DNA of 43,435 bases from a virus. Location: positions 1 to 43,435 of the IMG/VR virus record IMGVR_UViG_3300044997_000784, one strand, 5' to 3'. The translations under genes and the position numbers were made by a program. The notes under the pieces were generated by a model, which was not told the DNA's origin, did not search any database, and saw only the letters and a program-made list of their open reading frames with translations. Positions within the stretch are counted from its first letter, which is position 1. Each line of letters opens with the position of its first letter. Positions 6,213-30,360 of this stretch are shown here, in pieces.

Positions 6213-7301
6213 ATGACCAGTATCATCACCCCCACGTTCGTCTCGGACCTCAAGACACGCGTCCAGGACATCGCGAACGAGGACTACCAGCGCCTGAAGC
6301 AGGACATCTGGTGGAACAAGATCGCGACCACCCTCAACTCGACGACGAAGAAGGAGCGCCTCACCTGGCTCCTTTCGACTGGCCTGCTCGAGGAGGTCGC
6401 GCACGACGGTGGCGAGGTCGCCTACGACACGCTGCTCCGCGCCTCGACGGAGTTCGAGAACCGGTTCGTCCGCAAGGGCCTCAAGGTCAAGTTCGAGGAG
6501 TTCGAGGACCTCGACGGCGGTGCTGTGATGCTCTCGGGCGGACGCGTCGCTGGCCGCGCGGGCTTCGACGCGATCTCGAAGTGGACGCGCGACATCGCAG
6601 CGCACGCGGCCTACTGGCCACAGCAGAAGCTGGCCGAGGCGATCATCGCGAACCCCGTCGCGTACGACGCGAAGGCTTTCTTCGCGACGGACCATCCGGT
6701 GAACCCCCTCGACGCGAGCTTCGGTGCGTTCGCGAACGACTTCACGGGCGCCGCAAGCGGCGCCTACCCCGGCGCGCTGCCGATCCACGAGACCGGTGCT
6801 GGTTCCGTGACGGCCGAGGTCGCGCTCCAGAATCTCGCGAAGGCGATCGCCTACATCCGCGGGTTCATCAAGATGCCGAACGGCGTGCTGCTCCGGAAGC
6901 TGCGCGTCACGGGCATCATGGTCCCGCCCGAGCTCGCCGCGCGCGCGACGCTGCTCACGAGCGCAAAGTTCATCGCGCAGTCGGCCGCGAGCGGCGCGCT
7001 CTCCGGCGACATCCAGGCCGTGGTCAGCTACCTGAACCTCGGCGTGCCGATCATCGCCGACGAGCTCGGCGCTGCAATGGGCGGGTCGGCAACGACCTAT
7101 TACCTCATCGTGCAGGAGCTCAGCTCTCCGCAGATGGGCGCGTTCATCTACTCGAACCGCGAACCCATCACGATCACCTACGTCGGTCCCGAGACCGACG
7201 CCGAGCTCGCGCGCGCCCGTGAGCTCCAGTGGATCGCCCAGGGCCGCAACACGGTGGCCCCCGGCCACCCGTTCCAGCTCTTTCGCTGCCGCGGAGCCTG
7301 A
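6213..7301 (+). CDS. Major capsid protein, Mu gpT-like
   Basis: 362 residues resembling the Mu gpT major head subunit family: an N-terminal helix with QDIWWNKIATTLNSTTKKE, a central FFATDHPVNP segment, and a C-terminal domain ending near EPITITYVGPETDAELAR. It would form the HK97-fold capsid shell. A good ribosome site (AAGGAAGG) lies 10-15 bases before the ATG. It is followed immediately by a very stable hairpin (7307-7336), as often found after highly expressed capsid genes. Confidence 0.88.
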   Translation: MTSIITPTFVSDLKTRVQDIANEDYQRLKQDIWWNKIATTLNSTTKKERLTWLLSTGLLEEVAHDGGEVAYDTLLRASTEFENRFVRKGLKVKFEEFEDLDGGAVMLSGGRVAGRAGFDAISKWTRDIAAHAAYWPQQKLAEAIIANPVAYDAKAFFATDHPVNPLDASFGAFANDFTGAASGAYPGALPIHETGAGSVTAEVALQNLAKAIAYIRGFIKMPNGVLLRKLRVTGIMVPPELAARATLLTSAKFIAQSAASGALSGDIQAVVSYLNLGVPIIADELGAAMGGSATTYYLIVQELSSPQMGAFIYSNREPITITYVGPETDAELARARELQWIAQGRNTVAPGHPFQLFRCRGA

Positions 7302-7306
7302 CCCAT

Positions 7307-7336
7307 CGCTCCCCTCGGCCGACGTCGAGGGGAGCG
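7307..7336 (+). terminator. Strong hairpin after the capsid gene (terminator or mRNA stabiliser)
   Basis: Perfect 11-bp inverted repeat (CGCTCCCCTCG at 7307-7317 and CGAGGGGAGCG at 7326-7336) with an 8-base loop, six bases after the capsid stop. No U-run follows, so it may be a partial terminator, an mRNA-stabilising structure, or a processing boundary for the tRNA that starts at 7342. Confidence 0.55.
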
Positions 7337-7341
7337 CTCAT

Positions 7342-7415
7342 CGCGACGTAGAGGAGCAGTCGTCCTCGCCGGCCTCATAAGCCGGAGATCGCTGGTGCGA
7401 ATCCAGTCGTCGCTA
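7342..7415 (+). tRNA. tRNA-Met (CAT), initiator-like
   Basis: A complete 74-base cloverleaf can be folded by eye. Acceptor 7342-7348 pairs with 7408-7414 (six pairs, first position C-T unpaired). D stem GAGG/CCTC is perfect. The anticodon arm has CCGGC/GCCGG and loop CTCATAA with anticodon CAT at 7376-7378. Variable loop is AGATC. T stem GCTGG/CCAGT encloses loop TGCGAAT. The discriminator is A7415 and CCA is not encoded. The unpaired 1-72 position, the A11-T24 pair and the CTCATAA loop are features of bacterial initiator tRNA. The D loop lacks the GG pair and T-loop position 55 is G, so the elbow is divergent. Confidence 0.78.
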
Positions 7416-7425
7416 TCGCAGCATC

Positions 7426-7917
7426 ATGCCGACCTCGTACCTCACCCTCGCGGAGTTCCGCGCGCTCTCGCTCATGCCGGCGTCCGACGTCGACGAGCTC
7501 GAGGCGCGCGTGCCCGGCTTCATCGCCGGGCAGTGCGAGGTTGTGACCGCGGACCTCGATGCGCTCCTCCGCAAGCGTTACGCGGTGCCGTTCTCCGTGC
7601 CGTACCCCATCAAGGTCAAGGCGTGGTGCGCGCGCATCGTGACGCGCATCTGCTACCTCAAGCGCGGCATCGATCCGACCGACCAGCAGTGGTCGGCGTA
7701 CGACGAGGACGCGAAGACCGCGCTCGCAGAGGCGAAGGAGGCCGCCGACTCCGTCACGGGCCTCTACGATCTCCCTCTGCGCGCCGACACCACGACCACC
7801 GGCCTGCGTGCGCCGGTGCCGTTGGGATACACCGAGACATCGCCGTACGTGCAACAGGACGTGCAGGCGTCGCGCGCGTACGACGAGGACGCCGCTGGTG
7901 AGGGCACCTATGGCTGA
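7426..7917 (+). CDS. Head-tail joining protein, DUF1320 / Mu gp36-like
   Basis: 163 residues matching the gp36-like family: a helical N-terminus (YLTLAEFRALSLMPASDVDE), a central LRKRYAVPFSVPYPIKVKAW segment and an acidic C-terminal tail. In Mu-like phages this gene follows the capsid genes and is thought to be a head completion or connector protein. It begins 11 bases after the tRNA and overlaps the next gene by eight bases. Confidence 0.75.
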   Translation: MPTSYLTLAEFRALSLMPASDVDELEARVPGFIAGQCEVVTADLDALLRKRYAVPFSVPYPIKVKAWCARIVTRICYLKRGIDPTDQQWSAYDEDAKTALAEAKEAADSVTGLYDLPLRADTTTTGLRAPVPLGYTETSPYVQQDVQASRAYDEDAAGEGTYG

Positions 7918-28890: not shown

Positions 28891-28937
28891 AGCGGGACAA
28901 GGGATTCGAACCCTCGACTTCAACCTTGGCAAGGTAG
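28891..28937 (-). pseudogene. tRNA-Gly (GCC) 3' half within attP
   Basis: On the minus strand the sequence has an anticodon loop TTGCCAA (anticodon GCC), the T arm GAGGG-TTCGAAT-CCCTT and a 3' acceptor strand GTCCCGC plus discriminator T, the canonical 3' half of tRNA-Gly. There is no D arm or 5' acceptor strand upstream, and the anticodon stem has a mismatch at position 28, so it is not a full tRNA. On integration it would rebuild the host gene's 3' end. Confidence 0.72.
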
Positions 28938-29026
28938 CCCGCACTGTGCGGCCGATCAGGGTTTCGCGCGTTTTCCTCGACGATCGCGCGTCACCGCGGG
29001 ACCGCGCGGGGCCATCCGAGACAAAG

Positions 29027-29057: not shown

Positions 29058-30164
29058 TCACGCGCCGCCCTTCACCAGCCGCAGCGCGCCAAGCGCCGCG
29101 GCTGCCTTCTCGTCCGCGTCGACGTGCGAGTAGTGCTCGCGCATCGCCTCGGTGACGTGCCCGGTGATGGCCTTCTGTACGTCTGTCGACGTGACCCTCC
29201 GCAGGAGGTCGTTCCACGTGTGCCGAAGCCCGTGCGGCGTCACCCGACGCACCTCGGCCGCCACGATCGCGCGCTGGAGGGCCTTGCTCGCCCAGGTGCG
29301 CGAGCGCGGCTTACTCGCCTCGGTGCACCACACGAGCTGGCATGCGACCGAGCGGCGGCGCATCTCGCGGGCACGGTGCTGCTCGAGGATGGCGCGGAGT
29401 TCCGGCACGCACGGCACGGTGCGCGACCGCTTGCTCTTCGTGATGTCGCGCGCGCGCCCCCGCCACTGCGAGCGCCGGATCCGGATCTCTGTCTCGCCGA
29501 GGTCGTGCCACTGCAGTGCGCTCGCCTCGCTCCAGCGCATTCCCGTGAGCGCGAGCGTCAGCAGCATCGCGTAGACGCCCAGGTCGAGTTCGCGCATCGC
29601 GAGGAGCACGCGCCCGAGCTCGTCGGCTGAGAGAGCCTTGCCGTCGGACCGCGGCAACTCCGCGACCTGACGCACGCGCGCGGCCGGATTCGGGAGCTGC
29701 AGCTCGGCCGCAGCGTCGGCGAGGATCTCTCGCAGCACGCGGAGATGGCTGTTCGTCGTCGCGGGCGCGGAGACCTTCGCGATCGTGTCGCGCCACGTCA
29801 CGATGTCGACGGGCTGGAGCGCATCGAGGAAGAGGTCGCCGAGCCTCGGGAGGATGTGCAGGAGGATCGTGCGCCCGTACCGATCCACGGTGCTCGGCGC
29901 GAGCTCAGCGCCCTTTCGCGTCAGCCATGAGGCGGCGTACTCGCTCAGCCGCATCCGTTGTGGCCGCAGTCCGGCCAGCTCGAGCTCGAGCGCGCGCAGG
30001 CGCAGCGTCGCCGCGTGGGCTGGCGTCGGCGCGTCCGCCGTCGACCACGTGTCCACCTTCCGCTTCCGTAGGCCCGTGCGCGGGTCGCGGAAGGCGCTGA
30101 TCGTGCGGAAGCGTCCGTCGGGCAGCCTGTAGACGCCGGGGTGCTTCGTTCGCTGCATGGTCAT
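29058..30164 (-). CDS. int: Tyrosine-family integrase
   Basis: 368 residues. An N-terminal arm-binding domain (about 8-45), a SAM-like core-binding domain (70-165) and the catalytic domain are present. Catalytic residues: R210 (GMRWSEA), a Lys around 243-245, H311-x-x-R314 (HGLRHTW), H336 (ITGHVTEAM) and nucleophile Y345 (HYSHV). It would recombine attP (adjacent, 28842-29048) with a host tRNA-Gly gene. The ATG at 30164 is used; MTMQ offers a second ATG at 30158. The frame overlaps the excisionase frame heavily. Confidence 0.9.
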   Translation of the reverse strand: MTMQRTKHPGVYRLPDGRFRTISAFRDPRTGLRKRKVDTWSTADAPTPAHAATLRLRALELELAGLRPQRMRLSEYAASWLTRKGAELAPSTVDRYGRTILLHILPRLGDLFLDALQPVDIVTWRDTIAKVSAPATTNSHLRVLREILADAAAELQLPNPAARVRQVAELPRSDGKALSADELGRVLLAMRELDLGVYAMLLTLALTGMRWSEASALQWHDLGETEIRIRRSQWRGRARDITKSKRSRTVPCVPELRAILEQHRAREMRRRSVACQLVWCTEASKPRSRTWASKALQRAIVAAEVRRVTPHGLRHTWNDLLRRVTSTDVQKAITGHVTEAMREHYSHVDADEKAAAALGALRLVKGGA

Positions 30165-30360
30165 GGAGACGGGCCCTCGTCGAGATGAACGCGTCAAGCG
30201 TGGCAGGTCGGAACAGCGCGATGCCGTGAGGCCCACGCCCGTCGGGCACGAGCAGACCGCGCGCGATGGCCTTCCGCACACCCGACGCCGAGCGATACCG
30301 CAGGTAGGCCGCGGCCTCCTCAGTCGTGAGGTACGGTGACGTGCGCGCGGGCTCGGTCAC
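29905..30360 (-). CDS. Excisionase-like HTH_17 protein
   Basis: The first 60 residues (PYLTTEEAAAYLRYRSASGV, then RKAIARGLLVPDGRG and LFRPATLDAFI) are a clear HTH_17/MerR-like excisionase domain. The GTG at 30360 overlaps the upstream stop (GTGA). After residue about 66 the frame runs on to 29905, overlapping the integrase coding sequence by 260 bases with low-complexity Arg/Ala/Pro-rich sequence. Either the protein really carries that tail, or a sequencing or indel difference hides an earlier stop. It would direct excision with the integrase. Confidence 0.6.
   Translation of the reverse strand: MTEPARTSPYLTTEEAAAYLRYRSASGVRKAIARGLLVPDGRGPHGIALFRPATLDAFISTRARLHDHAANEAPRRLQAARRTLPHDQRLPRPAHGPTEAEGGHVVDGGRADASPRGDAAPARARARAGRTAATTDAAERVRRLMADAKGR

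Follow-up and report, generated by a model that had tools for sequence, protein, structure and literature searches.

The reason for the presence of tRNA genes in phages has long been discussed, and evasion of host anticodon nucleases is the leading recent proposal. In the same work, tRNA-fMet genes were noted to be generally avoided by phages if the nuclease is VapC (PMC10264068). The enteric VapC cleaves tRNA-fMet between A38 and C39 (PMC4105405).

Among 4,438 bacterial initiators, 2,762 elongator Met and 2,717 Ile2 tRNAs, C-U at position 1:72 was found in 626 initiators and A:U at 11:24 in 4,430 initiators, while both counts are zero for elongator Met and for Ile2 (PMC5143459). The features described for formylation are the 1:72 mismatch, G2:C71, C3:G70 and A11:U24 (PMC7949028).

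Here, a tRNA gene was analyzed in a linear IMG/VR virus record, a metagenome contig of 43,435 bases with a G+C content of about 70% (the window; Table 1). A second contig carries the same tRNA and is identical to the window where compared. With E. coli metZ, a bacterial tRNA-fMet, the window tRNA shares the unpaired 1:72 position, A11:U24, G2:C71, C3:G70, the CUCAUAA loop, G29:C41 and G30:C40. It differs in C31:G39, A18, G55, the lack of an encoded CCA, and in having C1xU72 instead of CxA; among Bacteria, C-U ranks second in frequency at this position.

The closest named relatives are tRNAs of the Straboviridae and of Pseudomonas phage D3. The Straboviridae tRNA-Met(CAU), e.g., of Aeromonas phage 31/44RR, is 84.5% identical over 71 nt and has the same D-arm type and A11:U24, but U1:A72, a GGG/CCC stem, a normal elbow and an encoded CCA, and it sits in a tRNA array, not beside a capsid gene. 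The D3 tRNA-Met shares C1xU72 and A11:U24, whereas its stem is GGG/CCC and its CCA is encoded; it lies near other tRNAs, before holin genes.

TABLE 1. Positions of the tRNA, its neighboring genes and the integrase region in the window.
Feature	Position	Strand	Evidence
Major capsid protein gene, Mu gpT-like	6213..7301	+	PF10124 Mu-like_gpT, E=5e-12; phrog_371 major head protein
13-bp G+C-rich hairpin between capsid stop codon and tRNA	7307..7336	+	RNA fold z=-3.56 for 7306-7420
Initiator-type tRNA (CAU), positions 1-73, CCA not encoded	7342..7415	+	RF00005, ARAGORN, R1, position parse
A18, partner of position 55; homologues have G	7358..7358	+	Alignment
C31, pairs with G39 at 7381; third 3GC-motif pair reversed, still G-C	7373..7373	+	
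CAT anticodon, inside loop CTCATAA (7374-7380)	7376..7378	+	
G55; T in 16/16 other distinct aligned homologues	7397..7397	+	Alignment
Neck gene, gp36-like	7426..7917	+	PF07030 Phage_Mu_Gp36, E=8e-4, under curated cut-off
tRNA-Gly(GCC) 3′ half: anticodon arm, T-arm, acceptor 3′ strand	28899-28952	-	
Tyrosine integrase	29058-30281	-	Adjoins tRNA-Gly 3′ half

Detection and Classification of the tRNA

The tRNA was placed by cmscan with RF00005 at exactly the position given in the preliminary description (51.5 bits, E=2.6e-8; gathering score 29), and ARAGORN called a tRNA-Met(CAT) at 7341-7417. For the classification, a covariance model (R1) was built from 13 phage initiator-type tRNAs and E. coli metZ, with the window tRNA left out of training. 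The window tRNA reached 81.1 bits (E=7e-22), which is within the range of 80-92 found for the phage initiator-type class. The tested elongator CAU tRNAs scored 40-65 bits (E. coli ileX 65, metT 62, three phage elongator-type CAU tRNAs 40-61).

The position parse (C1xU72, G2:C71, C3:G70, A11:U24, CUCAUAA loop, A73) bears out the unpaired 1-72 position and the A11-T24 pair that had been read from the sequence, and all four formylation determinants are present. The CTCATAA loop had also been listed as an initiator feature; it is present, but E. coli metT and ileX carry it as well, and it is thus not initiator-specific. The anticodon stem consists of G29:C41, G30:C40 and C31:G39. Two of the three initiator G-C pairs are therefore kept, as described before, and the third is flipped (GGC/GCC instead of GGG/CCC).

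These features support an assignment of the window tRNA as initiator-type, neither elongator Met nor Ile2. The anticodon CAU is common to initiator, elongator Met and Ile2 tRNAs, and tRNA genes are frequent integration sites of phages, so that an elongator tRNA or an attachment site could be considered. Paired 1:72 together with C11:G24, expected of elongator Met and Ile2, is absent; the 1:72 and 11:24 types of the window count zero in both elongator groups (PMC5143459), and metT and ileX stay well below the window tRNA on R1. The integrase lies 21 kb away and adjoins the 3′ half of a tRNA-Gly, which is likely the attP; a tRNA-Gly gene of the host is therefore the probable integration site. 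An elongator or attachment-site function of the capsid-proximal tRNA is thus very improbable. GTDB genomes were searched for exact matches to the tRNA-Gly attP core and also with the capsid protein, but neither search yielded a host. No second full tRNA was found in the window.

Location Behind the Major Capsid Gene

The tRNA lies directly downstream of the major capsid gene, and the ATG of the gp36-like gene follows 10 bases 3′ of it. The three genes are on one strand, and the gp36-like gene is kept 3′ of the capsid gene in relatives. The hairpin upstream of the tRNA lacks a T-run and is therefore no standard intrinsic terminator. Promoter-like or terminator-like sites were looked for in the capsid-gp36 spacer of the window and none was called, which makes co-transcription of the tRNA with the capsid gene likely.

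Relatives were gathered via tail sheath, capsid and gp36, resulting in 93 distinct capsid-gp36 spacers with constant gene order around them. An initiator-type tRNA was found in three of these, namely the window and the IMG/VR contigs L129 and L146. When R1 was run on the loci of 92 further relatives, no other tRNA was detected (best E 1.2). The three tRNAs share their gene neighbors, CAT, A11:U24, G2:C71, C3:G70 and, at position 1:72, a weak pair or a mismatch, while the stems differ. L129 has C1xA72, GCG/CGC and a normal elbow; L146 has U1:A72, a UGG/CCA stem, an encoded CCA and a normal elbow. Protein identity between L146 and the window is 34% for the capsid protein and 48% for gp36. Thus, three well-separated lineages carry a predicted initiator-type tRNA in this spacer.

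The main role of the element might also be structural, with the folded RNA serving the late transcript as an RNase P/Z processing point or a 3′ stabilizer between the capsid mRNA and the neck genes, and with decoding secondary or absent. The constant gene order would agree with this, as would the medium-length spacers of relatives, of which 33 of 49 fold better than shuffles (z<-2). The spacer of the close relative L006 retains sequence of the acceptor and the T-arm but no anticodon, and it matches R1 with 21.4 bits (E=5e-4). A folded tRNA-like minihelix in L006 was considered and weakened, since an extended hairpin (-29.3 kcal/mol) is about 9 kcal/mol better than the tRNA-like fold (-20.5 kcal/mol), and the spacer of L012, another close relative, no longer scores as a tRNA on R1. 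Moreover, structure alone would not need CAT, A11:U24, G2:C71 and C3:G70 to be kept in the window, L129 and L146; identity features that are kept while stems vary point to initiator use rather than mere transcript structure. A mainly structural role is therefore considered rather improbable.

The remaining spacers mostly contain a strong hairpin or are short. In about 50 relatives (e.g., L022, L025, L029 and L046), the capsid gene is directly followed by a very long G+C-rich hairpin; these hairpins are perfect or nearly so, and their sequences are unrelated to each other.

Remnants in Close Relatives and State of the Fold

In the capsid plus gp36 tree, the window, L006 and L012 form one clade (support 100), and L129 and L146 are placed elsewhere. 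L006 and L012 have tRNA-derived remnants in the spacer instead of a tRNA. Spacer similarity was significant in the shuffle test (0/1000 for L006-L129, 3/1000 for L006-L146 and 2/1000 for window-L012). Because the remnants resemble tRNA-bearing spacers, the tRNA predates the split of the three phages: it was present in their ancestor and was lost in L006 and L012. Loss is thus tolerated in this clade. In L024, next of kin to L146, no significant tRNA remnant was found.

One ancestral tRNA within a single clade of all five phages was rejected (AU p=0.00016; three changes on the capsid plus gp36 tree), a test whose group was chosen with the tree already known and that includes the long branch of L146. 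The counts fit three gains, or one gain and many losses, alike.

In the L006 phages, gp36 begins with a TTG (L006 5176) that abuts the tRNA remnant with zero spacer, and cleavage there would yield a leaderless mRNA. L180, a contig of L006, carries a tRNA-Arg(TCT) elsewhere in the genome.

The preliminary description had regarded the G18G19 and T55 elbow of the window tRNA as broken. G18 is indeed replaced by A18 and the T-loop reads TGC instead of TTC, but G19 and C56 are kept, so the elbow is down one contact (18-55), not both. TGC at 54-56 was found in none of the 109 phage tRNAs surveyed below and in no other distinct aligned homologue. At the 3′ end, A73 is followed by TCG.

A decaying copy had been suggested as well. 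In this case, the tRNA gene would be at an early stage of decay without present function, with the elbow mutations as first damage and L006 and L012 as later stages. The degraded tRNA sequences of L006 and L012, the closest relatives, agree with this suggestion, as do the unencoded CCA and the loss of a contact that every other aligned homologue keeps. The stems of the window tRNA, however, are intact: all 20 pairs other than 1:72 in the acceptor, D, anticodon and T stems are standard, as are the anticodon and the formylation determinants, and the tRNA family shows covariation at 15 of 21 pairs. By a rough count, if neutral change had reached two of the roughly twelve invariant bases of the loops, several stem pairs should have been broken as well, which disfavors simple decay. 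Moreover, the two altered bases contact each other, a coincidence not expected of random mutation, although this argument is post hoc. Decay is accordingly regarded as unlikely, albeit less so than a mainly structural role.

Survey of Phage Initiator-Type tRNAs and the VapC Cleavage Site

The window tRNA belongs to a widespread phage class. A single exact pattern of phage initiator-type tRNA was found in at least 120 stretches in IMG/VR; the earlier statement that phage initiator tRNAs are much rarer than elongator tRNAs is thus not supported. The survey pattern comprised D-arm and loop and left 1:72 and the 3GC motif free to vary; the matches listed contained 109 distinct phage tRNAs.

Among the matches listed, G2:C71 was found in 101, C3:G70 in 98 and G30:C40 in 99 of the 109 phage tRNAs. 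GGG/CCC occurred in 22 of the 109 listed (20%) compared to 3,849 of 4,438 bacterial initiators (87%), and U1:A72 in 50 (46%) compared to 1.4% in Bacteria. C39 was present in 60 of these 109 listed tRNAs (55%) compared to 98.5% in Bacteria (Table 4, PMC5143459), and the dinucleotide A38-C39 in 37 of them. Fisher p values for these contrasts are very small and overstate the evidence, since the phage rows are mutually related.

In three unrelated phage initiator-type tRNAs, the tRNA-Met of L004, L166 and L168, the 3′ strand of the acceptor stem is longer by a single base, which bulges out. Such a bulge was the best fit for 20 of the 109 surveyed tRNAs among the matches listed.

The window tRNA has A38-G39, and thus a G at position 39, on one side of the bond that VapC cuts in E. 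coli tRNA-fMet. C31:G39 is absent from the types of anticodon stem tabulated for initiators of Bacteria (PMC5143459). Escape from host tRNA damage, named in the preliminary description, may thereby gain a concrete and testable form, as base 39 beside the cut is G here and often changed class-wide. The class-wide change fits, and might reflect, an extension of the nuclease-evasion idea. The same survey numbers would, however, be expected if selection on the 3GC check were relaxed.

A wider proposal, which we put forward tentatively and with considerable doubt, is that phage initiator tRNAs are a class of their own. Formylation determinants would be kept, whereas the bacterial G31:C39 pair and often A38 would be dropped, bases 38 and 39 being those that flank the VapC-cut bond. 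Initiation on phage mRNAs could then continue once the initiator of the host has been destroyed. The window tRNA, with A38-G39 and a compensating C31, may be one escape form encoded in a capsid operon.

Proposed Role in Late Gene Expression

On balance, the tRNA is probably a phage-type initiator tRNA gene inside the late operon that is used as an extra formylatable initiator. It would be transcribed together with the capsid gene and cut from the late transcript by RNase P and host 3′ processing, and CCA would be added by the host enzyme. Met would be charged via CAU, and the charged tRNA could be formylated through its four determinants, which may provide extra initiator supply during bulk structural protein synthesis. 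The loss of the 18-55 contact in the window tRNA only, the unlisted C31:G39, the unencoded CCA and the loss of the tRNA in the two closest relatives speak against use as an extra initiator. A preference for late genes starting with GTG, as suggested earlier, is not supported by the ORF list, where ATG is the start codon of most late genes (capsid, gp36, sheath and tube among them).

New here is the placement of the tRNA behind the capsid gene; initiator tRNAs of phages may already have been described in subscription journals. The initiator tRNA is a known VapC target, and a phage class with an altered cut site gives the evasion proposal a direct test. The recurrence behind the capsid gene in well-separated lineages ties initiator supply to late gene expression.
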